From the NCBI GenBank assembly GCA_013002205.1, contig JABDKN010000150.1:1-40378 (forward strand): 40,378 nucleotides of DNA, given 5' to 3'. The translations under genes and the position numbers were made by a program. This document shows positions 3,950 to 17,626 of the stretch, one piece after another; position 1 is the first letter of the stretch, and each line of letters opens with the position of its first letter. Origin of the DNA: Granulosicoccus sp. GTDB lineage: Bacteria; Pseudomonadota; Gammaproteobacteria; Granulosicoccales; Granulosicoccaceae. The notes beneath the pieces are model-generated. The model did not search any database and had not been told where the DNA came from. It worked only from the letters and a program-made list of their open reading frames with translations.

Positions 3950-6900
3950 GCCTTTTGCCTGATTCCCTGCGGATCGACGAACACCGGATCACAGATGACG
4001 GCTTCCACCAGCTCACCGCCCGCCAACGGGAAATAGACTTTCTCACCCATTCTCTGTAAACCGTCCTTGATCACGGCCATGGCTATGCGCCTGCCGAGAA
4101 ACGCGCTGTGGTAGCTGGACGTGACATGTCCCACCATGGTCATCGGGATGGGTTCCGCCGGATCACGTACCGCCTGCGCACCTTCGGGTAACAGCGCTGA
4201 TGGATCCGTCGTCATCAGCCCAACCAGTTGCTTGCGATCTGTGCGCAGGCAATCCGAGCGGTTCATGCCGCGTTTGCCGATGAAACTGAACTCCTTGTTG
4301 TTGGCGACCGCCCAGCCATGGTTCATATCGTAGGGTGTCATCGATCCGTCCGTATCCTGGCCAACGATGATGAACCCTTTCTCAGCCCGCAATACGTGCA
4401 TCGTTTCGGTGCCGTAAGGTGTCAAACCGAACGCCGCACCGGCTTCGAACAGCGCTTCCCAGAGCGCCAGCCCATAATGCGCTGGCACATTGATCTCATA
4501 GGACAGATCACCGGTGAAGGATATCCTGAATATGCGCGCCGGTATTCCCGCCACGGTGGCTTCGCGCCAGTCCATGAAGCCGAATGACTCTGCGGAGAGG
4601 TCCAGGTCGGTCAGTGTTGCCAGCAGGTTACGACTATCCGGGCCGGCAATGCTCATGGTCGCCCAGTGATCGGTCACACTGTTGAAAAAGACCTCCAGCT
4701 CAGGCCATTCCGTCTGCTGGTAGATCTCCAGCCAGGACAGCACATGCGCCGCACCCCCGGTGGTGGTGGTCATCAGGAAATGATTCTGTGCAAGGCAACT
4801 GGTCACACCATCGTCCATGATCATCCCATCCTCGCCACACATCAGTCCATAGCGACAGCGCCCCGGCGCCAGTTTGGCCCAGGCATTGGTGTATACACGA
4901 CCAAGGAATTCACGTGCATCGCGCCCCTGTATGTCGATCTTGCCGAGCGTCGAGGCATCCAGTATCCCTACCCCGTTTCTGGTGGCAAGCTGCTCACGAA
5001 CAATGGCCTGGGCCATGGACTCATCACCCTGTGGGAAATACAGAGGGCGTTTCCACTGTCCCACGTTTTCAAATACCGCTCCGCGTTGCAGGTGCCAGGC
5101 ATGCATTGGCGTAAAACGTTGCGGATCGAACAGCAGATCGGTGCTGGCACCGGCCACCACACCAAAGCTTACCGGTGTGTAGTTGGGTCGAAACACGGTC
5201 GTGCCGGTTTCAGCCAGGGTTTTGCCCAGTGCATGAGCGACGATGGCCATGCCATTGACATTACCAGTCTTGCCCTGGTCGGTACCAAAACCCAGTGCGG
5301 TGTAGCGCTTCACGTGTTCGATGGATTCGAAACCCTCTTGCGTGCTCATCTGGATACCCGCGGCCGTGACATCGTTCTGCATATCGACGAATTGCTTGGG
5401 AGCGCGGCTGCTGGGCAGTGTGTGTGGTACCAGGAATACAGGCATGGCGGCGCAAACGTCCTCCTGTCCCGAGGCGCTTGCCGGTATCTTCATTATCCTG
5501 TCCGATGACAGGTGATGGGCCGCCGTGGCTGCCTCGCTACCAGCATGAACACCCTCTGCCAGACACTGGTCCAGCGACAGCGTGCCATTGATGGCACCGG
5601 CACAGAAGCGGGCCTCAGAGGTGCTGCCCGGCACGAAACCCAGCTTCTCATCCGACCACACCGGACGGCTGCCGGTATGACAGGACAAATGCACGACCGG
5701 ACTCCATCCACCACTGGTGGCAATCGTGTCGCAAGGCAGCAGCCGCAATTCACCGGTGACAAAGGTGGCTGCTGCATTGATCGGTGACACCACAGCGCCG
5801 CTGACCCGATGTCTGCCGCGCGCTTCTATGAGGGCTGAGCCTGTGATCAGCGTCATCCCGCGTTGCCGGGCCATCTGCGTCACCGCACCGTCCGGATCGC
5901 GCCGAGTGTCCACGATGGCAACGAGCTTACGCCCCGCATCAACCCAGTCAAAAGCCGCCTGGTAAGCACTGTCATTGCTGGTCATGACCACCAGCTGCGT
6001 CCCCGGCACCACGGCAAATCGCTGGATGTAGTGCGATACGCTCGAGGCCAGCATGCAGCCTGGCAGATCGTTGTTGGCAAACACCAGTGGTCTTTCGTGG
6101 GCACCCGTTGCCAGCACGACACTGCCGGCACGTACCTTGTGCAGGCGTTGCCTGGACATGTGTGCAGGTGCGCGATCACCCAGATGATCGCTGCGCCGCT
6201 CACTGATCGTCAGAAAATTGTGATCGTGATAACCGGTGACGGTCGATCGTGCCAGTCGCGTGACCGAGTCACTGGCATCGAGCTCTGTCACCACGTCAGC
6301 CACCCATTCCATGGCAGGCTTGCCCTCGATACTGTCCCGGCTGAACAGCAGCGAGCCACCCGCTTCACTGCGTTCATCGGCCAGCAGCACTCGTGCACCC
6401 TGACGGGCGGCGCTGAGAGCGGCCATCAGACCTGCCGGGCCTGCGCCCACCACCATTACATCGACATGGTGGTGCATATGATCGTATCGATCGGCATCCG
6501 GCAGTGTCGGACTGCGCCCGAGACCGGCGGCCCTTCTGATGAACTTCTCGTATGTTTCCCATTGGGATTTCGGCCACATGAAGGTCTTGTAGTAGAAACC
6601 GGGCGACATCAGCGCACCACCCAGTCGGCCTAATACGCTCATGACATCGGTATTTACCGACGGCCAGCCATTGACCGGCCGGCAGACCAGCCCCTCATAC
6701 AGCGACTGTTCGGTAGCCTTGATATTGGGCGTCTGAGTTGATTCGGTGGCACCTGTCTGAAGTATCGCATTGGGCTCTTCAACACCGGCAGTCATGATGC
6801 CGCGTGCGCGCGAATATTTGAAACTGCGGCCAACGACATCCACGCCGTTGGCCAGCAGTGCTGATGCCAGCGTATCCCCGGCATAGCCCATCAGTCGACG

Positions 6901-6999
6901 ATCAGCGAATAGGAAAGAGAGCGGCTTGTCGCGTTCAATCCGTCCACCGCTATCCAGTCGGTTTTTCTGCTGCAGCCTGAGCTGGTGCGCATTCAACAT
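3946..6999 (-). CDS. soxA: Sarcosine oxidase alpha subunit
   Basis: A 1017-residue protein, the usual SoxA size (about 1000). It has an N-terminal Fer2_4-like domain (about 1-110), an NAD-binding Rossmann motif GAGPAG at 185-190, a middle BFD-like/A3 domain near 535-600 and a C-terminal GcvT-like folate-binding aminomethyltransferase region from about 620 to the end. SoxA carries the NAD+ site and the tetrahydrofolate site, where the methyl-derived C1 unit becomes 5,10-methylene-THF. With SoxB, SoxD and SoxG it turns sarcosine, O2 and THF into glycine, H2O2 and methylene-THF in the cytoplasm. ATG 6999 shares a base with the soxD stop (TAATG). Confidence 0.97.
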   Translation of the reverse strand: MLNAHQLRLQQKNRLDSGGRIERDKPLSFLFADRRLMGYAGDTLASALLANGVDVVGRSFKYSRARGIMTAGVEEPNAILQTGATESTQTPNIKATEQSLYEGLVCRPVNGWPSVNTDVMSVLGRLGGALMSPGFYYKTFMWPKSQWETYEKFIRRAAGLGRSPTLPDADRYDHMHHHVDVMVVGAGPAGLMAALSAARQGARVLLADERSEAGGSLLFSRDSIEGKPAMEWVADVVTELDASDSVTRLARSTVTGYHDHNFLTISERRSDHLGDRAPAHMSRQRLHKVRAGSVVLATGAHERPLVFANNDLPGCMLASSVSHYIQRFAVVPGTQLVVMTSNDSAYQAAFDWVDAGRKLVAIVDTRRDPDGAVTQMARQRGMTLITGSALIEARGRHRVSGAVVSPINAAATFVTGELRLLPCDTIATSGGWSPVVHLSCHTGSRPVWSDEKLGFVPGSTSEARFCAGAINGTLSLDQCLAEGVHAGSEAATAAHHLSSDRIMKIPASASGQEDVCAAMPVFLVPHTLPSSRAPKQFVDMQNDVTAAGIQMSTQEGFESIEHVKRYTALGFGTDQGKTGNVNGMAIVAHALGKTLAETGTTVFRPNYTPVSFGVVAGASTDLLFDPQRFTPMHAWHLQRGAVFENVGQWKRPLYFPQGDESMAQAIVREQLATRNGVGILDASTLGKIDIQGRDAREFLGRVYTNAWAKLAPGRCRYGLMCGEDGMIMDDGVTSCLAQNHFLMTTTTGGAAHVLSWLEIYQQTEWPELEVFFNSVTDHWATMSIAGPDSRNLLATLTDLDLSAESFGFMDWREATVAGIPARIFRISFTGDLSYEINVPAHYGLALWEALFEAGAAFGLTPYGTETMHVLRAEKGFIIVGQDTDGSMTPYDMNHGWAVANNKEFSFIGKRGMNRSDCLRTDRKQLVGLMTTDPSALLPEGAQAVRDPAEPIPMTMVGHVTSSYHSAFLGRRIAMAVIKDGLQRMGEKVYFPLAGGELVEAVICDPVFVDPQGIRQKA

Positions 7000-7328
7000 T
7001 AACCGGACCTCCGGTTGAGTGCGGAACCGGTAGCACCTGCCTGGGGATCATCCCCGAGATCCAGAGTGTCGCCCACCTTGTAGGTGGCATAGATTTCATA
7101 GGTTTGGGTATTGCGCGCCACATTGAAGTATTTACGACAGCCGGCAGCATGCACCCACAGCTCACGGTGCTCTCCACGGGGGTTCTTGCGAAAATACAGG
7201 TAGTCACCCCACTGTTCATCCGTCATTGCGTCCGGGTCGGGAGGGCGAGGCAGATGCGCCTGCCCGACCGCATGAAATTCGTCCTCTTCGCGGTGTTCAG
7301 CGCAATAGGGGCAATGAATCAGGAACAT
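6999..7328 (-). CDS. soxD: Sarcosine oxidase delta subunit
   Basis: A 109-residue protein. The zinc ligands expected for SoxD are present: Cys6 and Cys9 in CPYC, His60 and Cys64 in the VHAAGC segment, followed by KYFNVARNT, a strongly conserved SoxD stretch. SoxD is a small zinc-binding structural subunit of the heterotetramer. It begins 33 bases after the soxB stop and its own stop overlaps the soxA start by one base. Length is normal for the family. Confidence 0.96.
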   Translation of the reverse strand: MFLIHCPYCAEHREEDEFHAVGQAHLPRPPDPDAMTDEQWGDYLYFRKNPRGEHRELWVHAAGCRKYFNVARNTQTYEIYATYKVGDTLDLGDDPQAGATGSALNRRSG

Positions 7329-8757: not shown

Positions 8758-8773
8758 GGCTCAGGGCTGAGCC
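8758..8773. terminator. Hairpin at the stop of the receiver gene
   Basis: An inverted repeat GGCTCA-GGGC-TGAGCC overlaps the stop codon of the minus-strand response regulator gene. It lies between that gene and soxB, which run in the same direction. No T-run follows, so it may attenuate rather than terminate; function is unproven. Confidence 0.3.
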
Positions 8774-9144
8774 AGCACTGCAGCCACCTCATCGCGAAGC
8801 CTGGTCAGGGAGATTGGTTTCTTGATATACCTGCAGATTTCCAGGTGACGTGTCTGCTGCCGCAGCAGGCCCAGGTTGTTGCCGGAGCAGAACACGACCT
8901 TGCAATCATTCCTCAATGCCTTGGCCCGCGTGGCCACATCGATTCCACTTCTGTGCTCACCCAGGTCCCAATCGGTTATGAGCACCTCGGGAGCACTGTG
9001 CGTAACGGCTTCCAGGGCTTCGTCTATACTGCAGGCTCCTCGCGGCTCATACCCCATACGCCTTACCAGGCTCATCAGTGCAGTGTGAGTCTGCTCATCA
9101 TCCTCGACAATCAGAATATCGATCTGTGCGGCACTCTGGCTCAT
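8761..9144 (-). CDS. Stand-alone response regulator receiver protein
   Basis: A 127-residue protein consisting only of a CheY-like receiver. Seen: acidic pair ED(D) at 14-16, phosphoacceptor Asp58 in ITDWDLGEHRSG (aligned with CheY SDWNMPNMDG), Ser in the switch position (CSGNN) and the conserved Lys in KKP near 106. There is no output domain, so it should work through protein contact, as CheY, SpoIIE-type or phosphorelay receivers do. No histidine kinase is in the window. It lies upstream of soxB on the same strand (118 bp between stop and the soxB TTG) and divergent from the DUF2254 gene. Its job may belong with the two regulators at 10750-13523 rather than with sox. Confidence 0.9.
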   Translation of the reverse strand: MSQSAAQIDILIVEDDEQTHTALMSLVRRMGYEPRGACSIDEALEAVTHSAPEVLITDWDLGEHRSGIDVATRAKALRNDCKVVFCSGNNLGLLRQQTRHLEICRYIKKPISLTRLRDEVAAVLAQP

Positions 9145-9330: not shown

Positions 9331-10719
9331 ATGCGTGCGCGACTGATCAAATTCTTGAACGATGTTCGCGCCAGTTACTGGTTCATACCACTGTGCATGA
9401 TGCTCAGTGCAATGCTGCTGGCCTTACTCATCAGCTGGGTGGACGAAGGGGTCTCGCTGGAGTGGCTACCCTGGAACATCGCGGCCAGCACCGACGATGC
9501 GCGGAGTATCCTGAGCGTGATCGCCACCTCGGTACTGGGAGTTGCGGGTGTCACCTTCTCGATCACCATCGTGGCGGTGTCCTTTGCCAGTGCCAACTTT
9601 GGGCCGCGCCTGATCAATAATTTCATGAGCGACAGGGGGAGTCAGTACACCCTGGGTACGTTCATCGCAACCTTCGTCTACTGCCTGACCGTGCTGACCA
9701 ACGTCCACGGCTCGACCAATATCGAATCCGGGGGAACAACCGATGCGTTCGTTCCGCACCTGAGTATCGCCGTTGCGCTGCTCCTGACATTCGCATCGAT
9801 AACGGTGCTGATCTATTTCATTCATCACATCACTGAAACCATTAATATCGAGAATATCATCGCTGATATCGGCAGCTCGCTGGTCAGTGGAATGGCTGAT
9901 TTACGGACGGCGCCGGATGAGTTGAGATCGGAGCTCTCCGAGTCCTTCGATACGATGGTCAAAGGTAAACTGTTGCGCGAGGTTCCGGCCGGTTGCATCG
10001 GCTATGTCCAGACCATCGACCTGGAACGCCTTGCCAGCATCGCAGAAGAGGAGAATCTGCTGATCAGGGTCCACTACCGCCCGGGGGATTTCACCAGCAC
10101 ACACGACTGCCTGCTCAGCGTGTGGACGTCTACCCTGGAACAATTTCCGGAACAATCACTACGCGAGTGCTTCGCTACCGGACAGGAACGCACCGTGCAC
10201 CAGAACGTGTTGTTCCTGGTCGAACAGCTCGGTGAGGTCATCGCACGTGCATTGTCACCCGGTATCAATGATCCGTTTACAGCCATCAGCTGCATGAACT
10301 GGTTCCGTACCGCATTGATGGAATACCTGGCGCGCGCAGCCGAGCGGGGCTCGCAACACGGTGAACAGGACGTTGCCGAGGAATACTCCCGCGTGCAGTT
10401 GACGCCGATCACGCTGTCGCGCTTGTGCCAGGTCATGTTCGACCAGACGAGGCAGTACGTGAGTGCGGACCGAAACGTGACGCTGCATGTGATGGCGCTG
10501 CTGTGCGAATGTGCCTGGTTTGCCGGTGAAGGTCCCGCCAGAACCCTGTTCATGGAGCATCTGGACAAACTGTACAAGAGCAGCACTCGCCAACTGAGCG
10601 ACGCCGGTGAGGATGCAGCAGTGGGTGAACGTTACGCCCAGGCGCTGGATGTCATCGCTGCTGAATCGGACAAGGACCGCATTCGCGCGCAAGCCGACTG
10701 GTTCGGTGGCAGCGCATGA
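9331..10719 (+). CDS. DUF2254 family predicted membrane protein
   Basis: A 462-residue protein. Four hydrophobic segments occupy roughly the first 170 residues, with the family-typical stretch VAGVTFSITIVAVSFASANFGPRL at the second segment followed by a large soluble C-terminal region that carries LSPGINDPFTAI, also typical of DUF2254. The family is found in the inner membrane and has no established function; some authors expect a channel or sensor role, which this sequence cannot test. It is the only plus-strand gene between two minus-strand regulator genes and ends 30 bases from the convergent regulator. The upstream 186-bp divergent region holds a loose TGTAA-n-TTACC element near 9287-9300. 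Confidence 0.85.
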   Translation: MRARLIKFLNDVRASYWFIPLCMMLSAMLLALLISWVDEGVSLEWLPWNIAASTDDARSILSVIATSVLGVAGVTFSITIVAVSFASANFGPRLINNFMSDRGSQYTLGTFIATFVYCLTVLTNVHGSTNIESGGTTDAFVPHLSIAVALLLTFASITVLIYFIHHITETINIENIIADIGSSLVSGMADLRTAPDELRSELSESFDTMVKGKLLREVPAGCIGYVQTIDLERLASIAEEENLLIRVHYRPGDFTSTHDCLLSVWTSTLEQFPEQSLRECFATGQERTVHQNVLFLVEQLGEVIARALSPGINDPFTAISCMNWFRTALMEYLARAAERGSQHGEQDVAEEYSRVQLTPITLSRLCQVMFDQTRQYVSADRNVTLHVMALLCECAWFAGEGPARTLFMEHLDKLYKSSTRQLSDAGEDAAVGERYAQALDVIAAESDKDRIRAQADWFGGSA

Positions 10720-10749: not shown

Positions 10750-12153
10750 TCACACAGTCGCAATATTACTGAGCTGCTCTTCGTAACTATTGAGTCTGTT
10801 GTACAAGGTTTTCAGGCTGATGCCGAGTACCTTTGCCGTCTGGCTCTTGTTGTTGTCGTTGGCATCCAGGGTCGCCAGGATCAACTGTTTCTCGACTTCG
10901 CGAAAAGTCTGGCCAATGAAAGGCGCAATCAGGTCATTGACGCCAGTCTCACTTTCCACGAACAGCGACGGGTCGGCGGCAATCTCGTCTCCCGCCTCAG
11001 TCAGGCGATAGGCGGTGAGCAGGGCATTCTTCAGTTCAACCTGGTTGCCCGGCCAGTAGTGTGCACTGAGTTGTTCAATCATGCCCTGCGACAGGCTTTT
11101 CTCGGTATCGAACACCTTGTTCAGCTGATCCACTGCGCAACGTGCAAAGTAGGCGATGTCCTCGCGACGCTCCACCAGTGGTGGTACATGTATGGTGTTG
11201 CTGGCCAGCGAAAAATACAGGGAATCGTACAGGCGGTTGCCAGAGAGCGCCTCAGCGACCGGTTCGCGCAATATACCCACGACCGAACACTGGTACCTGT
11301 CGGGTGTCAGTGCGCTACCTGCCAGAACCTCTCCCGTGGTGATGAAGTTATCCAGCCGTCGCTGTATTTCCATGGGCAGGGAAGATACGTCGTCCAGTAC
11401 CAGCGTGCCACCGTCGGCCTTTTTCAGGTACGACTCGGTACGCGCCGCGGTCCCAACATCACCCGGGCGCCCGTCATGACTCCCAAAAAACCGGTCGACG
11501 GCCTGCTGCCCTGACTCGCTGGCACAATTGACGATTATCGCCCGGCCCTGTCGCTCGCCATAGTGATGCAGCAGGGCGGCAATGTCAGCCTTGAGCACAC
11601 CGGGCTGCCCTGTGATCAATGCATGTGATGGTGTCGCCCTGGCGACTTGCCGCAGCAGCTTGATCAACTTCTGGCTGGCCGCCGACCTACCTTCCAGCGC
11701 ACCAAATCCGGGCCTCAATTCCGGTGGGTACTCGCGGGAGGTCACCGTTGATTGATGTCTGAGGCTATCGGCCCGACGTACAGCGAGCATCAGTTCTCTG
11801 GATTGCACTGGTTTGACCAGAAAATCGAATACCCCGGCCCGCAGACACTTTCGCGTACGCTCCGCATCATCCGTTCCGCTGACCACTATGATCTTCTCGA
11901 CGCCGGACGCTTTCAGTTCCTTTATGGCATCCACTCCATCGCCGTCAGGCAACGACAGGTCGAGCAATACGATTGCCGGTGACTGCGTCCGGACCCGCTC
12001 CATTGCTTCACTCAGGCAGCTGACGTGATCAGCCGTATAGTCCGCCCTTTCCAGCACCCGCTGAAGAGCCGATGCAGTGTCGGTATCGTCCTCAACGACC
12101 AGGATATCCAGCGCAACATCGCTGTAATCGGCACTCTTGCTCATTTTGTTCAT
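10750..12153 (-). CDS. NtrC-shaped response regulator with degenerate AAA+ domain (copy 2)
   Basis: Three parts in 467 residues: receiver (1-125; Asp65 in LLDLSLPDGDG, Lys114), an AAA+-like middle (about 155-385) and a Fis-type HTH at the end (about 415-455; TAKVLGISLKTLYNRL). The receiver and HTH look intact. The AAA+ part does not: the P-loop reads GQPGVLKA instead of GESGTGKE, GAFTGA is absent from the region near 224-240, Walker B ends in DD rather than DE, and the arginine-finger segment reads YDSLYFSL instead of FREDLYYRL. It is therefore unlikely to drive sigma-54 polymerase and may act as a plain phosphorylation-controlled DNA-binding protein. ATG 12153 follows a GAAAGAG ribosome site that overlaps the stop of the preceding paralogue; a TTG at 12156 is also possible. 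Confidence 0.88.
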   Translation of the reverse strand: MNKMSKSADYSDVALDILVVEDDTDTASALQRVLERADYTADHVSCLSEAMERVRTQSPAIVLLDLSLPDGDGVDAIKELKASGVEKIIVVSGTDDAERTRKCLRAGVFDFLVKPVQSRELMLAVRRADSLRHQSTVTSREYPPELRPGFGALEGRSAASQKLIKLLRQVARATPSHALITGQPGVLKADIAALLHHYGERQGRAIIVNCASESGQQAVDRFFGSHDGRPGDVGTAARTESYLKKADGGTLVLDDVSSLPMEIQRRLDNFITTGEVLAGSALTPDRYQCSVVGILREPVAEALSGNRLYDSLYFSLASNTIHVPPLVERREDIAYFARCAVDQLNKVFDTEKSLSQGMIEQLSAHYWPGNQVELKNALLTAYRLTEAGDEIAADPSLFVESETGVNDLIAPFIGQTFREVEKQLILATLDANDNNKSQTAKVLGISLKTLYNRLNSYEEQLSNIATV

Positions 12154-12161
12154 CAACTCTT

Positions 12162-13523
12162 TCAGTATGCGCTCATGCGGTTGTAGAGCGTCTTCAGACT
12201 GACACCCAGTATCTGCGCCGTCTTTTCCTTGTCGCCCTCGAAATGTGCCAGGGTTGCATTTAGTAGTTGCCTCTCCAGCTCCCAGACGGTAGTGCCCACC
12301 CAGGGCTGGATGTCGGAGCGCGATGCTTCACCAGAGCGCACCACCTCATCGCTCGAGATGTCGACGGCCTGGCCCGGAGGCGTCGCGGCCAGTGCCTGCT
12401 CTATGACGCTGCGCAATTCACGCACGTTTCGCTTCCACGTCCTGTTCTCCAGACACACCCGACTCTCTGCAGAGAACTGCGGCGCATCATCTCGTTCGAT
12501 GCTCGCCTGGGCAAGCAGCAGGTCGGCGATAGCGTGAATATCATCCATGCATTGACGCAGATTCGGCACCGCCAGGGTCGTCTGTGCGAGGCGGAACAGA
12601 AAATCCGTGCGCAGTGCACTCTCATCGACATCGGTAGTACCGGAGTCCCTGGCAATCCCGATGACCGACAGATTTGCCTGGGCCGCGCGATCACCGTCCA
12701 CGCGCCTGAACGTTCCGGAGTCAAGAAACGGCAGGAAGCGGCTCTGTACATCCTTCGACAGTTTTTCCACGTGATCCAGAATCAGCGTGCCGGCAGCCGC
12801 CTGTTCCAGGTAGCCCCGATGGATAATCTCTCCTGTCGCCGGATCTTCCTGGCCGAACAGCCTGACCAGTCCCAAGGGTCCGCTTACCTCGTTACAGTCA
12901 ACCAGCAGGCAGCGTCCGGCACGCCGCCCTCTTGCATGAATCGCCCGCGCGACCTCTATCTTCTCCACACCCGGCTCACCGGAAATCAGCGCGTGGCCAC
13001 GGCGCCGCTCCGAGCTGTAGCTCATCGCCGTGCGCAGTGCACTCAGGGAGTGGTGCCTGCCCGCGCTGATCCACACCGCACGCACATCCACATCATCGAC
13101 ACCGGCCCCGGCTGACGGGTCACCCGTTGCCTCTTTGATCCCGGCTGGTAAGAGCTGATCCCGGAGCGTGGACAAGTCAACCGGCTTGAGTAGTAATTCG
13201 ACAGCGTGATTGCGAATGCTCTTGATCGCTGCCCGTTGTGAATCATCCCCGCTGATCACGATGAAACGGCCGCGCGTGTCACTACGCAGTTCGTCCATCA
13301 GATCCAGGCCATTGCCATCAGGCAGATCGATGTCCACCAGCATGAGTTCAGGTGCCTGGTCACGAATGGCCACCCTGGCTTCATCGATTCTATGAGTCAG
13401 GATGACCTCGTACCCCAACGACTCGAGCACGCGCTTATAGGTGGCAGCCAGCGTCTCGTCATCTTCCAGGACCAGGGAGCATGGGCGGACGGCCGGGGTC
13501 CGCACTGTGTGTTCGCTATTCAT
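12162..13523 (-). CDS. NtrC-shaped response regulator with degenerate AAA+ domain (copy 1)
   Basis: A 453-residue paralogue of the next gene. Receiver: Asp64 in LVDIDLPDGNG, Lys113. AAA+-like centre: P-loop GEPGVEKI at 182-189 keeps Lys but replaces the second glycine of GxGK, GAFTGA is replaced by DPATGE, and Walker B reads LILDH. The arginine-finger segment (LRTDFLFRL) and a WKRNVRELRSVIEQA sensor II helix are kept better than in copy 2. The Fis-like HTH (AQILGVSLKTLYNRM) closes the protein. It is the first gene of a two-gene operon; eight bases separate it from the ATG of copy 2. The motif at 13562-13576 lies about 40 bases upstream of its ATG. No sigma-54 activator function is expected. 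Confidence 0.88.
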   Translation of the reverse strand: MNSEHTVRTPAVRPCSLVLEDDETLAATYKRVLESLGYEVILTHRIDEARVAIRDQAPELMLVDIDLPDGNGLDLMDELRSDTRGRFIVISGDDSQRAAIKSIRNHAVELLLKPVDLSTLRDQLLPAGIKEATGDPSAGAGVDDVDVRAVWISAGRHHSLSALRTAMSYSSERRRGHALISGEPGVEKIEVARAIHARGRRAGRCLLVDCNEVSGPLGLVRLFGQEDPATGEIIHRGYLEQAAAGTLILDHVEKLSKDVQSRFLPFLDSGTFRRVDGDRAAQANLSVIGIARDSGTTDVDESALRTDFLFRLAQTTLAVPNLRQCMDDIHAIADLLLAQASIERDDAPQFSAESRVCLENRTWKRNVRELRSVIEQALAATPPGQAVDISSDEVVRSGEASRSDIQPWVGTTVWELERQLLNATLAHFEGDKEKTAQILGVSLKTLYNRMSAY

Positions 13524-13561
13524 GGTCAGGATTATGCTCCCGGTGGCGCCGTCATCGAACG

Positions 13562-13576
13562 ACTGTAAATTTTACA
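13562..13576. promoter_or_regulatory. Near-palindromic motif upstream of the twin regulator operon
   Basis: The sequence ACTGTAAATTTTACA contains a perfect TGTAAA-T-TTTACA palindrome 41-53 bases before the ATG at 13523. The same 15 bases occur with one change at 14226-14240. Position and symmetry suit an operator. The binding protein is not known; the regulators encoded downstream are natural candidates. Confidence 0.5.
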
Positions 13577-13657
13577 CGGTAGTTACCCGATCTCCGGTTA
13601 CAGGGCGATCAAGAACCAGTTGTCGGTGACACATGCTGGAGCTGGACGCCACTACAC

Positions 13658-14164
13658 TCAGATCACGGGTGGCACAGCCTCGATCTCACCCCGGACTTCC
13701 AGCTCTGGAAATTCGTTGCGCAGCCGGTGGGCTACGCTGGTGACCTGGTCCTCATCGAGCTGCACGATAATCAACAGTTCCCCGCGAGCGATGGCATCCT
13801 CGTACTCCCTGATCTGGCTATTGGGCACAGAGGAGCCGATCAGGGACGATGAGAGCACGCCGAAGGTTGCACCACCTGCGGCTGCCAGAGCCAGCGCCGC
13901 ACCGCCTATGGCCAGTCCCGGAGCAATCACCATGGCACCGAGTCCAGCCAGCAGACCAGTGGCGCCGCCGAACAATGCCCCCCGCTGGGCCGCCGGCTTC
14001 ACGTCGTTTTCGAACTCACCCGCATCCGGCAACTGCGCAAGCTCCCCGGCATCTTTGCCGACCACGCTGATCCGCTCCTCTCCCACTCCCTGATTCTGCA
14101 GGGACCGGACGACCCGGATCCCGGTCTGATCGTCACTGACGGTAAACACCAACTTGCTGGACAT
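13658..14164 (-). CDS. Glycine-rich stress-type membrane-associated protein (DUF1269/YflT-like)
   Basis: 168 residues from ATG 14164, which has AGGGGAA six bases upstream; an in-frame GTG at 14170 is less well placed. The N-terminal 50 residues (VFTVSDDQTGIRVVRSLQNQGV, then ISVVGKD) look like the alpha/beta half found in heat- or general-stress proteins. A Gly/Ala-rich hydrophobic hairpin follows at about 63-112 with repeated small residues (glycine-zipper type), and the C-terminus returns to a beta-alpha-beta ACT-like pattern (GELLIIVQLDED). Such proteins are often stress-induced and sit at the membrane; no biochemical role is known. It is divergent from the YihY gene and is preceded by the shared motif at 14226-14240. 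Confidence 0.7.
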   Translation of the reverse strand: MSSKLVFTVSDDQTGIRVVRSLQNQGVGEERISVVGKDAGELAQLPDAGEFENDVKPAAQRGALFGGATGLLAGLGAMVIAPGLAIGGAALALAAAGGATFGVLSSSLIGSSVPNSQIREYEDAIARGELLIIVQLDEDQVTSVAHRLRNEFPELEVRGEIEAVPPVI

Positions 14165-14225
14165 ACGCACTTCCCCTGTTGAAAAGCAATGAGCTTACTA
14201 ACCAGGCCAGAGAGTGAACCCAGGC

Positions 14226-14240
14226 ACTGTAAATTCTACA
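14226..14240. promoter_or_regulatory. Second copy of the near-palindromic motif, between the DUF1269-like and YihY genes
   Basis: ACTGTAAATTCTACA differs from the copy at 13562-13576 by one base. It lies 62 bases before the minus-strand ATG 14164 and 84 bases before the plus-strand ATG 14325, so it could serve either gene. Confidence 0.5.
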
Positions 14241-14324
14241 AACCTGCGTGATGTTCGCCTCTGCAGTTGCCTGCTGTGATGCAATTGCCCGACAGTTGAA
14301 ACTGGACACCAGAACCGGGCGCCC

Positions 14325-15308
14325 ATGAATCCCACTGAAGAGCAAACTCGACAGGAAAAACAACGCGGCCGCCGCGCCCGCGTCCCGTATCGCATACAAC
14401 TGATCGGTTGGTGGGACATCGCCCGCCGACTGTTCAAGTCCATCGGTGAGCAGAACATGTCGATACTGGCAGCGGGTGTGGCGTTCTACGCCTTACTGGC
14501 CATATTCCCGGCCCTGGCGGCCATGGTCACAATCTATGCGTTGCTGTCCGATCCGCAAACCGTGGCGGATCATGTGACCAGAGCCCAGGTCTTCCTGCCT
14601 GCAGATGTCGTGAAGTTCTTCAATGAACAATTGAGAACCCTGAGCGCGCAACCGGTCGAAGGTCTTTCACTCAATCTTGTGTCAGGCATCCTGTTCGCCA
14701 TCTGGAGTGCGCACAAAGGGGTAGACGCGCTCGTCAGGGCAATCGGGGTGGCTTACCACGAACCGGAGACCCGGGGCCTGGTTCGTCTCAACCTGCTCAC
14801 CTACCTGCTGACATTTGCTGCCATCATGTTCGTTGTGATCGTACTGATACTGATGGTCGTACTGCCCTCGGTCACTGCTCTGCTGACGCTGCCGGCCTGG
14901 TGGGATACGTTCGTACCGATTGTTCGCTGGCTGGTCTTCATTGGCGTGGTGTCGCTGGCCATTGCCACGTTGTATCGGTATGCCCCGGCCAGAAGACCGG
15001 CGAAGTGGAGATGGTTGTCCACAGGTGCCGTCGTCGCCACCATCCTGTGGGTTATCGGTTCCGCGCTGTTCTCCTATTATGTCAGTCAGTTCGGTACCTA
15101 CAACGAGACCTACGGTGCCCTCGGGGCAATCATCGTGCTGCTCCTGTGGTTCTACATAAGCAGTTATGCCGTCATCGTCGGGGCAGCTCTGAACGCAGAG
15201 ACGGAACACCAGACCTTGCGTGATACCACGACGGGGAAAGCAAAGCCAATGGGCAAGCGCGGAGCCATCGTGGCAGATACCATCGGGGCCATCCCATCCT
15301 CCGACTGA
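14325..15308 (+). CDS. YihY/BrkB family inner-membrane protein
   Basis: A 327-residue protein with six hydrophobic segments after a basic N-terminal 40 residues. The family hallmarks are present: AAGVAFYALLAIFPALAA near 45-62, the SAHKGVDALVRAIGVAYHEPETRG segment in the middle, YRYAPARRPAKWRW before the fifth segment and TYGALGAIIVLLLWFY-S near the C-terminus. The family was once called ribonuclease BN and a serum-resistance factor (BrkB); the RNase assignment has been withdrawn and the true role is unknown. The gene is divergent from the DUF1269-like gene across 160 bp. A small GC hairpin after the stop (15325-15343) has no T-run. Confidence 0.9.
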   Translation: MNPTEEQTRQEKQRGRRARVPYRIQLIGWWDIARRLFKSIGEQNMSILAAGVAFYALLAIFPALAAMVTIYALLSDPQTVADHVTRAQVFLPADVVKFFNEQLRTLSAQPVEGLSLNLVSGILFAIWSAHKGVDALVRAIGVAYHEPETRGLVRLNLLTYLLTFAAIMFVVIVLILMVVLPSVTALLTLPAWWDTFVPIVRWLVFIGVVSLAIATLYRYAPARRPAKWRWLSTGAVVATILWVIGSALFSYYVSQFGTYNETYGALGAIIVLLLWFYISSYAVIVGAALNAETEHQTLRDTTTGKAKPMGKRGAIVADTIGAIPSSD

Positions 15309-15595: not shown

Positions 15596-15724
15596 TGAAG
15601 GCTCAGCAAATGCGGCGGAAAATTGGAACGAGGCGCTAGAAAATACGCGGCTTCTTTCCAATTTGCCATCACTATGGCGTCTGTTGGGCTTACACTGCGC
15701 TGCAGAATTTCTCGGATGACGCTC

Positions 15725-16363
15725 ATGTCAAAATCTGCTCAAAGTCTCACGATCCACCGCTGCCTCACTCTGGCATTCTTTTTATCGGCAGCGTCGGCCA
15801 ATCTCATGGCACAACAGGATGTACAGGTCAGTGAACGCGACGGGCTACTGTCGGTGCAGGCCAGCAATACGTCGGCGAGTCACCTGGCTGAAGTGTTGGC
15901 CGAGCGGCTGGGCATCAGCGTCGTGGTCACCGGCGACACCGAGGCTCTGGTGAATATCGACATCGTCGATGAACCTCTGGCCAAGGCACTGGCCAAACTC
16001 AGCCCCAATCACATGCTGGTACGCAGCAGCAAGCTTGCCGACAGCAGCATCGTCGAAGTCGTACTGATGATGGGTGAAGAAGGTTCATCACAGGACTCCG
16101 GGGGGAGTGATGATCAATTCCTGCCCAGTGGTTCTCCGGCGGATGATGTGGTGGTTATCGATGATCAACAGTCGACGCAGGATGGTGCAGACCCACTCGA
16201 TCCGAACGGCGCCGCAGCTGCCAGTGAGAGCATTGAGGCTAGCTCTGGTGATTCTGCCGGCCAGCCTGCGGACGCTGCAGAAGGCTATCCGGCACCCGAT
16301 TCATTCGATCCTGTCACTGGCCTGCCCATCGACCCGGCAACCGGATTGCCGGTAGAACAGTAG
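15725..16363 (+). CDS. Exported STN/secretin-N-like small protein with Asp/Ser-rich tail
   Basis: I chose ATG 15725 because it places a signal peptide directly at the N-terminus (charged start, LTLAFFLSAASANLMA, then QQD); upstream in-frame ATGs at 15716 or 15623 would add an unlikely leader. The mature part begins with an approx. 70-residue alpha/beta domain (LLSVQASNTSASHLAEVLAERLGISVVVTGD... NIDIVDEPLAKALAKL) shaped like the STN/secretin short N-terminal domain. The remaining 100 residues are low-complexity, rich in Asp, Ser, Ala and Gly, ending in a repeated DPxTGLP motif. There is no secretin or TonB receptor attached. Its last 63 bases overlap the 3' end of the opposing protease gene. 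Function unknown. Confidence 0.72.
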   Translation: MSKSAQSLTIHRCLTLAFFLSAASANLMAQQDVQVSERDGLLSVQASNTSASHLAEVLAERLGISVVVTGDTEALVNIDIVDEPLAKALAKLSPNHMLVRSSKLADSSIVEVVLMMGEEGSSQDSGGSDDQFLPSGSPADDVVVIDDQQSTQDGADPLDPNGAAAASESIEASSGDSAGQPADAAEGYPAPDSFDPVTGLPIDPATGLPVEQ

Positions 16364-17626
16364 CAGTGCCAGCACAAACAGGAGCCACGTTGCTGCACCG
16401 CCATTCAGGGACGTACTGAACACCGGGGCCAGCGGATCTTCCACGGCACTGGCAGCCGCCAGTGCCGGTGCCGGGTTGCCTGATTTGTCAGCGTTGTTGC
16501 CCGGGTTGTCGTCAGGCGTCTTGGAGCTGACAACCGCCGTCAGTTCCTCGACGGCAAGTCGACGATCCAGATCCAGGACCAGGATGCTGCTGCTGCTGGC
16601 GGGAAGTCGTTCCAGCAGGCAGGACACCCTGCCGGAATCCGCTGAACTGCATTGCCAGCCATTGTCGCTGTGACCCAGCAGCCTGCCCTCACCGAAGGTG
16701 ACCGACAGTTCAATGGTGTGAGCGCCCTGCGCGTGGTCATTGCTTACCTGAATGGTCGCCTCGGAACTCTGCCCGTCGGTGTACACATGAGTGACGACCG
16801 ACAGATCAGAGGCGTACAGATTCGCAATGGCCGCCAGGTCTCCCGGGCTGGGGCTCCTTCGCTGCCCGATAGTGTCCGCAGAGCCGACCAGTGGCGTGAT
16901 CGTCGGTTTACCATTGAGTGTGAAGTTGTTGGGACCGTAATGCATGATCGAGGAGTAATCGTATTCTCCCAGCACGCGCGATCCGGCATCGGCAATGTTG
17001 AAGTTGTGCCGTTTCTCCGGATCGATGTTGTCCCAGTGAATAGTGATGAACTGATCCCGATCCGGTCTGGTGTGTTCATGTTCAAGGCCGAGCGCGTGTC
17101 CAATCTCATGCATCACACTGCCTGCCGCACAATTGGACGCTACCCATATTTCCTGAACACCGCCACGCCTACCTACCCATGAAGCGCAGCCCGGGCCCGG
17201 CTGAAACAATATGGAATCGGCCGGCGTGGCCGCCCCACCACCCCACTGCTGCAACGGCAGCAGAGTGACGCCGCTGGCCCTGTTCCAGTGCTCCACGGCG
17301 GTCTCGATAGCGGCGACACTGGCCTCGGACAGTGCCGGATCGATGGCAAACGGCACGATACCGTCCACCCAGAGCTGAACGTTCGCCGGCAGGGCAATCG
17401 ATCGCCGCTTGTGTGACTGTTCCACCAGGATATCGCCTTCGATCAACTCAGGCGCTGACCATTCGACCGGGGTATCAGCGCCGGCAAATGAGGCCATCGT
17501 CACCAGCTGTAGTGCACCGCCGAGAAAAACCGCAGTTGACCAGAGCGAGTGCGGGCGCGATGCAGTCTGACAAGCATCGTCCACACTGGGCCGATGGGAC
17601 TGAGTGCACGTTCGCGACACGGACAA
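16301..17626 (-). CDS. Secreted astacin-type (M12A) zinc metalloprotease with GlyGly-CTERM-like tail
   Basis: Numbered from TTG 17626. A signal peptide (hydrophobic stretch about 30-48, AGA-DT) precedes a catalytic domain with HEIGHALGLEHEHTRPDRD at 173-191, the astacin zinc site HExxHxxGxxHExxRxDRD, and the Met-turn SIMHY at 226-230. After about 275 comes a beta-rich DUF11/CARDB-like domain. The C-terminus has GG at 409-410, a hydrophobic helix and basic residues, resembling a GlyGly-CTERM sorting signal for rhombosortase, though 15 residues follow it. The start is uncertain: TTG 17626 and GTG 17620 are both possible. It should act on proteins or peptides outside the cell. The 3' end overlaps the convergent STN-like gene by 63 bp. 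Confidence 0.85.
   Translation of the reverse strand: MSVSRTCTQSHRPSVDDACQTASRPHSLWSTAVFLGGALQLVTMASFAGADTPVEWSAPELIEGDILVEQSHKRRSIALPANVQLWVDGIVPFAIDPALSEASVAAIETAVEHWNRASGVTLLPLQQWGGGAATPADSILFQPGPGCASWVGRRGGVQEIWVASNCAAGSVMHEIGHALGLEHEHTRPDRDQFITIHWDNIDPEKRHNFNIADAGSRVLGEYDYSSIMHYGPNNFTLNGKPTITPLVGSADTIGQRRSPSPGDLAAIANLYASDLSVVTHVYTDGQSSEATIQVSNDHAQGAHTIELSVTFGEGRLLGHSDNGWQCSSADSGRVSCLLERLPASSSSILVLDLDRRLAVEELTAVVSSKTPDDNPGNNADKSGNPAPALAAASAVEDPLAPVFSTSLNGGAATWLLFVLALLLFYRQSGCRVDGQASDRIE

Follow-up and report, generated by a model that had tools for sequence, protein, structure and literature searches.

A conserved pair of NtrC-type response regulators in Granulosicoccus with unequal loss of AAA+ active-site motifs and a predicted TGTAN5TACA operator

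What becomes of an NtrC-type response regulator once the ATPase core that serves sigma-54 activation has been disabled? The question is raised by two adjacent paralogous genes, A and B, in a 40,378-nucleotide stretch of Granulosicoccus sp. (contig JABDKN010000150.1 of GenBank assembly GCA_013002205.1; the whole stretch is hereafter the window), for which an original prediction had proposed that both proteins have been rebuilt as sigma-54-independent DNA-binding regulators, perhaps as a heteromer. The locus and its relatives lead us, with moderate confidence, to regard A-B as a phosphorylation-controlled regulator pair that would act independently of sigma-54, with predicted DNA binding at the palindrome TGTAN5TACA upstream of their own operon as well as of envelope and stress genes. 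The two genes and their P-loops are located as follows.

12162..13523, minus strand: gene A (copy 1), 453 amino acids; receiver with D21, D22, D64, S91 and K113; AAA+ domain without GAFTGA; Fis-type helix-turn-helix (HTH)
10750..12156, minus strand: gene B (copy 2), 468 amino acids from a TTG start; receiver with D66 and K115; AAA+ domain without GAFTGA, arginine finger or sensor II arginine; Fis-type HTH
12957..12980, minus strand: P-loop of A, GEPGVEKI; Lys188 retained, preceding glycine replaced by Glu
11587..11610, minus strand: P-loop of B, GQPGVLKA; Lys189 retained, preceding glycine replaced by Leu

The motif columns were defined by alignment with three canonical proteins from the same genome, using position names (finger, sensors) that we take to apply to A and B. 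This alignment bears out the predicted absence of GAFTGA from both copies as well as the P-loop readings, with the refinement that the lysine is retained and the loss concerns the glycine before it. As had also been read originally, Walker B ends in DH in A and in DD in B, while the arginine-finger position is LRTDFLFRL in A, with both arginines present, and LYDSLYFSL in B, with neither. At sensor II, A reads NVREL and B reads NQVEL, and the T/N of sensor I is gone in both. Judged by its sequence, A-B cannot work as a normal sigma-54 activator, and the label of sigma-54-dependent regulator is probably wrong for such proteins.

The losses are shared throughout the family. A profile of 16 family members searched against 27 genomes of the genus recovers 22 members at 502-636 bits, the next-best match scoring 277 bits; 16 of the 22 match by construction, being rows of the profile, and the six others (from genomes G018, G392 and G390) score 516-624. 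The adjacent A-B pair is present in nine of the 27 genomes, in the same order in 9/9 and never one alone, a single relative, S, is found in three and no family member in 15; a third copy, T, lies near the pair in G002. GAFTGA, the glycine before the P-loop lysine and the Walker B glutamate (DE) are each retained in 0/22 full-length members, and the P-loop lysine in 22/22. The B orthologues have lost both finger arginines and the sensor II arginine in 9/9 and end Walker B in DD in 9/9, and the A orthologues keep the first finger arginine in 9/9, the second in 8/9 and the sensor II arginine in 5/9, with H (6/9), Y (2/9) or D (1/9) in the column of the Walker B glutamate. The receiver columns D64 and K113 are conserved in 22/22 members and the receiver acidic pair in 20/22 (the exceptions being N in B of G002 and R in S of G017). 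No orthologue with intact motifs, which according to the original prediction would point to local decay or sequencing error, is found among the 22 members, and the orthologues combine the shared loss with a conserved receiver and HTH, the combination that the original prediction had named as support for a selected new function.

A maximum-likelihood tree of 43 rows (midpoint-rooted; G037C13 and G032C2 excluded) recovers A (9) and B (9) each as monophyletic and unites A, B, S, T and X, the last being two more relatives without receivers in G003 (contig C24; L057:5143-6225 and 6235-7218, tail to tail), in one group with support 100/100, opposite the 19 other rows. The S proteins do not form a single group: those of G003 and G017 join A (95/92); that of G014, like T and X, is placed near B without good support (80/52). 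On this midpoint-rooted tree, parsimony would have the contact loop, P-loop glycine and catalytic glutamate disappear first, ahead of the A/B split; B would have lost its finger and sensor II arginine afterwards. Among G012, G018 and G392, the ratio of non-synonymous to synonymous substitution rates (dN/dS) of the AAA+ domain lies at roughly 0.04-0.05 in A and 0.04-0.08 in B, with synonymous sites near saturation in most pairs and dS >1 even among these three genomes, and 50/241 AAA+ positions in A and 56/241 in B are invariant over nine orthologues. By these measures A and B are under purifying selection and not pseudogenes, and A-B is a real, selected pair. The X pair of G003 represents a second twin within the same clade, in which one P-loop still reads GTGK.

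Outside the genus, the best four candidates of each of 369 class-level genomes were scored. The five best-scoring relatives, at 391-326 bits (G197 C172, G237 C162, G108 C14, G370 C4 and G388 C12), all possess Walker A, a GAFTGA-type loop, DE, finger and sensor II; their HTH is similar to that of A/B, and histidine kinase or AI-2E genes are found close to four of them (the reading frame in G237 extends beyond its homologous end). These outside relatives are intact NtrC-type regulators, unlike A/B in that their motifs are complete. The series from the intact outgroup over single S copies to the twin A-B would illustrate how an ATP-driven sigma-54 activator can become an ordinary DNA-binding regulator. 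A plasmid search for A/B relatives gave nothing useful, the best identity among the matches listed being 31.5%, and a peptide-pattern search of GTDB contigs yielded, among the matches listed, two weak and uninformative ones. In the own genome, two further NtrC-type proteins, C298 (L056:2044-3408) and C50 (L055:4994-6316), are also without GAFTGA and have altered P-loops (GESGSGR and GERGTDR, respectively); they form long branches outside the A/B clade, among the 19 other rows of the tree.

The passages of PMC3162934 drawn on here state that TyrR, DhaR and HupR have lost GAFTGA and act with sigma-70, and propose the same of VpsR and YplP; those of PMC10274813 also give it for the R. capsulatus and Caulobacter NtrC, with 'ATP binding rather than hydrolysis' as the wording used for R. 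capsulatus NtrC. According to the same passages, TyrR, DhaR, HupR, VpsR and the two NtrC proteins resemble A/B as NtrC-type AAA+ proteins of sigma-54-activator descent with a deleted or altered contact loop; as in these relatives, the contact loop is absent from the A/B family while the DNA-binding domain is conserved. Going by the descriptions, A/B are set apart from them by the disappearance of the P-loop glycine and the Walker B glutamate in every member and by a twin arrangement with unequal losses. No paper title describing the A-B pair was found in a search on Granulosicoccus or DUF2254 response regulators and on GAFTGA, with subscription papers mostly outside its scope. GAFTGA-less NtrC relatives are already known, and the conserved twin with unequal active-site loss is new. 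HrpR/HrpS are, like A-B, two adjacent paralogous activators that act together, and unlike A-B they lack receivers and retain sigma-54 activation.

Outside the active site, receiver, Sigma54_activat and HTH_8 score above the Pfam cut-offs in both proteins, in agreement with the receiver and Fis-type HTH that had been called normal, and the lid is also found in the AAA+ domain. The coordinates predicted for A and B proved right; the two genes lie 5 bp apart on the same strand and are probably co-transcribed. The phospho-accepting aspartate of B is D66 counted from the TTG start and D65 from an ATG one codon later. NCBIfam equivalogs (NtrC, NtrX, the PEP-CTERM regulator and others) remain far below their cut-offs for A/B, and sequence matches in the PDB are headed by NtrC4, NtrC1, LuxO and NtrX. 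AlphaFold2 models, built on alignments of 26 rows each with some family members omitted, reach a mean predicted local distance difference test (pLDDT) score of 84.7 for A and 86.7 for B, and Foldseek ranks NtrX (Brucella), LuxO, NtrC4, NtrC1, FleQ and VpsR first. The whole-chain superpositions are loose, with template modelling scores by query of about 0.44-0.49 in the top rows, as is expected if domain orientation differs; by the predicted models the domains of A and B retain the family fold. The sequence LFRS, presumably the FleQ-type cyclic di-GMP motif, precedes the AAA+ domain of C28 of the genome and not that of A or B.

If the pair has retained DNA binding, which DNA might it bind? Upstream of A lies a short palindrome, the predicted operator being a new addition of the present analysis.

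13564..13576, no strand assigned: palindrome TGTAAAATTTACA of the form TGTAN5TACA, predicted autoregulatory operator upstream of A

Exact TGTAN5TACA occurs upstream of A in 8/9 pair loci at -51 to -90 from the chosen start codon, compared with one of 155 background windows of 300 bp; the sequences elsewhere are TGTATATATTACA (in four genomes), TGTAAAAATTACA, TGTAAAAGTTACA, TGTAATTTTTACA and TGTAAAAATGACA. In the ninth locus, of G002, one arm carries a mismatch and the palindrome lies at -126. The start codons of A in G023, G012 and G392 were set downstream of that of the longest open reading frame (ORF), and the longest ORF for A in G392 (554 amino acids) would contain the palindrome. In G390, the palindrome lies in the space that separates A from a divergently oriented histidine kinase gene. 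The TyrR box consists of the same half site with wider spacing. The window holds two sites, equal to four strand matches as opposed to 0.17 expected, a count seen in 0/100 shuffles. Of the 15 sites in the own genome, 14 were examined (C144 excluded) and four are intergenic by a crude longest-ORF call, namely 13564-13576, 14228-14240, a third that precedes a hemerythrin gene by 103 bp and a fourth that precedes the rpoN reading frame by 153 bp. The last of these, TGTAATCGTTACA (C129:46246-46258, L221:1497), could be a link from the pair to sigma-54 supply, or chance.

The second site of the window points to candidate targets beyond the own operon. The gene order is receiver (8761), DUF2254, B, A, YflT, BrkB, with the following features around the pair.

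14228..14240, no strand assigned: second palindrome TGTAGAATTTACA, predicted operator between the divergent YflT-like and BrkB genes
13658..14170, minus strand: YflT-domain protein (Pfam 27.6 bits, cut-off 26.2), proposed target
14325..15308, plus strand: BrkB/YihY family membrane protein, proposed target
9331..10719, plus strand: DUF2254 membrane protein, co-occurring neighbour, no conserved site upstream
8761..9144, minus strand: single-domain receiver

Upstream regions were located by tblastn anchors, and null windows were taken away from the fetched sites. Eleven BrkB orthologues were found, and those with at least 70% identity carry the palindrome 53-97 bp upstream in 5/5 cases, the window's included. 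BrkB is 1.43 Mb apart from A-B in G023 and on separate contigs in G392, G012 and G018, and a YflT homologue is also beside BrkB in these four genomes; the palindrome follows its putative target BrkB when BrkB lies far from A-B. DUF4331, a candidate in some species, has a site with an arm mismatch in G012. In two loci, L172 (G015 C77) and L184 (G392 C2), the palindrome is situated between DUF4331 and a divergent sigma-factor-like gene, which in G015 resembles extracytoplasmic function (ECF) sigma factors with sigma-70 regions by Pfam and in G392 was judged by eye. In G014, G015 and G390 the neighbourhood of the A/B or S genes contains related histidine kinases; AI-2E family genes occupy such positions in the same three genomes and in G007.

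Counted over whole genomes, the ratio of strict matches to reversed control is 26:8 where the pair is present (nine genomes), 8:3 where S occurs (three) and 24:26 in the 15 genomes without the family (Fisher p 0.008 for pair genomes versus non-carriers, 0.005 with the S genomes included). Leaving out the seven A operators that suggested the pattern gives 19:8 versus 24:26 and p 0.049, and as the enrichment reaches only this value our confidence in the best explanation is slightly lowered. A looser pattern, with strands added, gives 67:17 in pair genomes compared with 119:125 in non-carriers.

Loss of sigma-54 from the genome was considered as the cause of motif loss and is rejected, as rpoN is present in the own genome (Sigma54_DBD match). 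A scan for -24/-12 elements in nine A and five BrkB upstream regions found at best two mismatches in 11 positions, the scan having no null and the targets being inferred. A palindrome upstream of A and BrkB without a close match to a sigma-54 promoter fits sigma-54-independent DNA binding by the pair. The rebuilding that had been originally proposed is thereby supported in part: the shared losses, the conserved receiver and HTH, the presence of rpoN and the palindrome speak for it, and the binding itself is a prediction.

On the preferred reading, A-B would be a kept response-regulator pair descended from a sigma-54 activator, in whose ancestor the loop that contacts sigma-54 had presumably gone along with the P-loop glycine and catalytic glutamate, B later losing its finger and sensor II arginine as well. 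A histidine kinase would phosphorylate the receivers and shift the oligomeric state, upon which A and B may bind TGTAN5TACA via nearly identical recognition helices (SLKTLYNR), at predicted sites that precede the own operon and envelope and stress genes (YflT/BrkB, joined by DUF4331 in some species), and there repress or activate ordinary sigma-70-type promoters without ATP hydrolysis or sigma-54. The family supplies a testable predicted operator together with candidate targets. A possible heteromer, the other part of the original prediction, is suggested only by the pairing (9/9 adjacent, same order) and the unequal loss.

Several observations weigh against this reading. One-mismatch matches occur in 16/155 of the background windows, which are mostly coding, so that the G002 site is weak alone, and the three S genes and T are without an exact TGTAN5TACA upstream. 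In the whole own genome the pattern is rarer than its reversed control (15 places versus 62). Apart from the A operators, 11/27 strict matches in carriers are intergenic by the crude ORF call, and in non-carriers 7 among 20 examined of 24 (p 0.46); with the intergenic share alike in both, many strict matches are background. Six more distant BrkB orthologues are without a convincing site (one weak, p 0.015, in G002), and the non-carrier G022 has GGTAATATTTACA 256 bp upstream of BrkB, above every null window. The exact site precedes DUF4331 in 3/10 loci with upstream sequence (G015, G392 and G018) and is missing from the main copy in G023, and it precedes DUF2254 in 1/13 loci (G015), which leaves DUF2254 unsupported as a conserved target. 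Presence in family carriers versus non-carriers (DUF2254 12/12 versus 1/15, BrkB 10/12 versus 1/15, DUF4331 9/12 versus 0/15) is counted regardless of phylogeny, hence of shared ancestry, and of incomplete assemblies. A consensus scan of 13400-14400 recognised no sigma-70 promoter at the sites, and a cognate kinase of the window's A-B pair was not found.

Some of these points would suit a palindrome that is the site of another transcription factor controlling A-B and the stress genes, with A-B regulating something else: the site is short and AT-rich, the crude call puts 16/27 of the remaining strict matches of carriers within genes, the S and T loci lack the exact site and G022 has a site-like sequence before BrkB. 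An enrichment over the reversed control that is confined to carriers, and a site upstream of A in 8/9 pair genomes with a mismatched one in the ninth, argue against such a factor, which we hold to be possible and on balance unlikely. A sharper form of the preferred reading, rather than its opposite, is an obligate A-B hetero-oligomer (a ring or a dimer) built around a single composite pocket for nucleotide, to which B would contribute the P-loop lysine and the Walker B aspartates and A the arginine finger, so that nucleotide binding, not turnover, would gate DNA binding. The constant pairing of A and B (9/9 genomes with unchanged order, neither gene occurring singly), the complementary retention of the finger (A 9/9 versus B 0/9) and of DD (B 9/9 versus A 1/9) and the P-loop lysine in 22/22 point in this direction, as do interacting paralogous activators reported for Azotobacter in the portion of PMC9542535 consulted. 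On the other hand, neither A nor B retains the P-loop glycine or the sensor I T/N, and S is single in 3/27 genomes, two of the three S proteins keeping DD and at least one finger arginine in one chain; the obligate hetero-oligomer is a tentative, rather unlikely proposal. More doubtful still appears the full elaboration into a split pseudo-AAA+ switch, a hydrolysis-dead pair in which the A finger and the B P-loop would form one sensing pocket and the heteromer would read both phosphorylation and nucleotide to control a sigma-54-independent envelope-stress regulon via TGTAN5TACA.

That A-B still activate sigma-54 holoenzyme through an altered loop is very improbable. The presence of rpoN would permit it, and Caulobacter NtrC DNA-binding mutants, without GAFTGA, activate some sigma-54-dependent flagellar genes according to the section of PMC12421884 used here; against it stand the loss of loop, P-loop glycine and catalytic glutamate in 22/22 members and the absence, in a scan without null, of any close -24/-12 match in front of A or BrkB (at best 2/11 mismatches). 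Local decay or sequencing error, by which the motif losses would be an accident of this one locus, has negligible probability and is rejected, as nine species share the losses with open frames and purifying selection and nothing was found in its favour.

The neighbourhood of the pair recurs in part in other genomes. Homologues of the small receiver adjoin DUF2254 in G023, G012, G392 and G018 (58-62%) and A-B in G390 (44%). On the other side of the pair, a frame at 15623-17626 of the window for which Pfam has no family shares a tail-to-tail overlap with an astacin (M12A) peptidase gene, and homologues of both this frame and the astacin gene adjoin A-B in G023 and G012.

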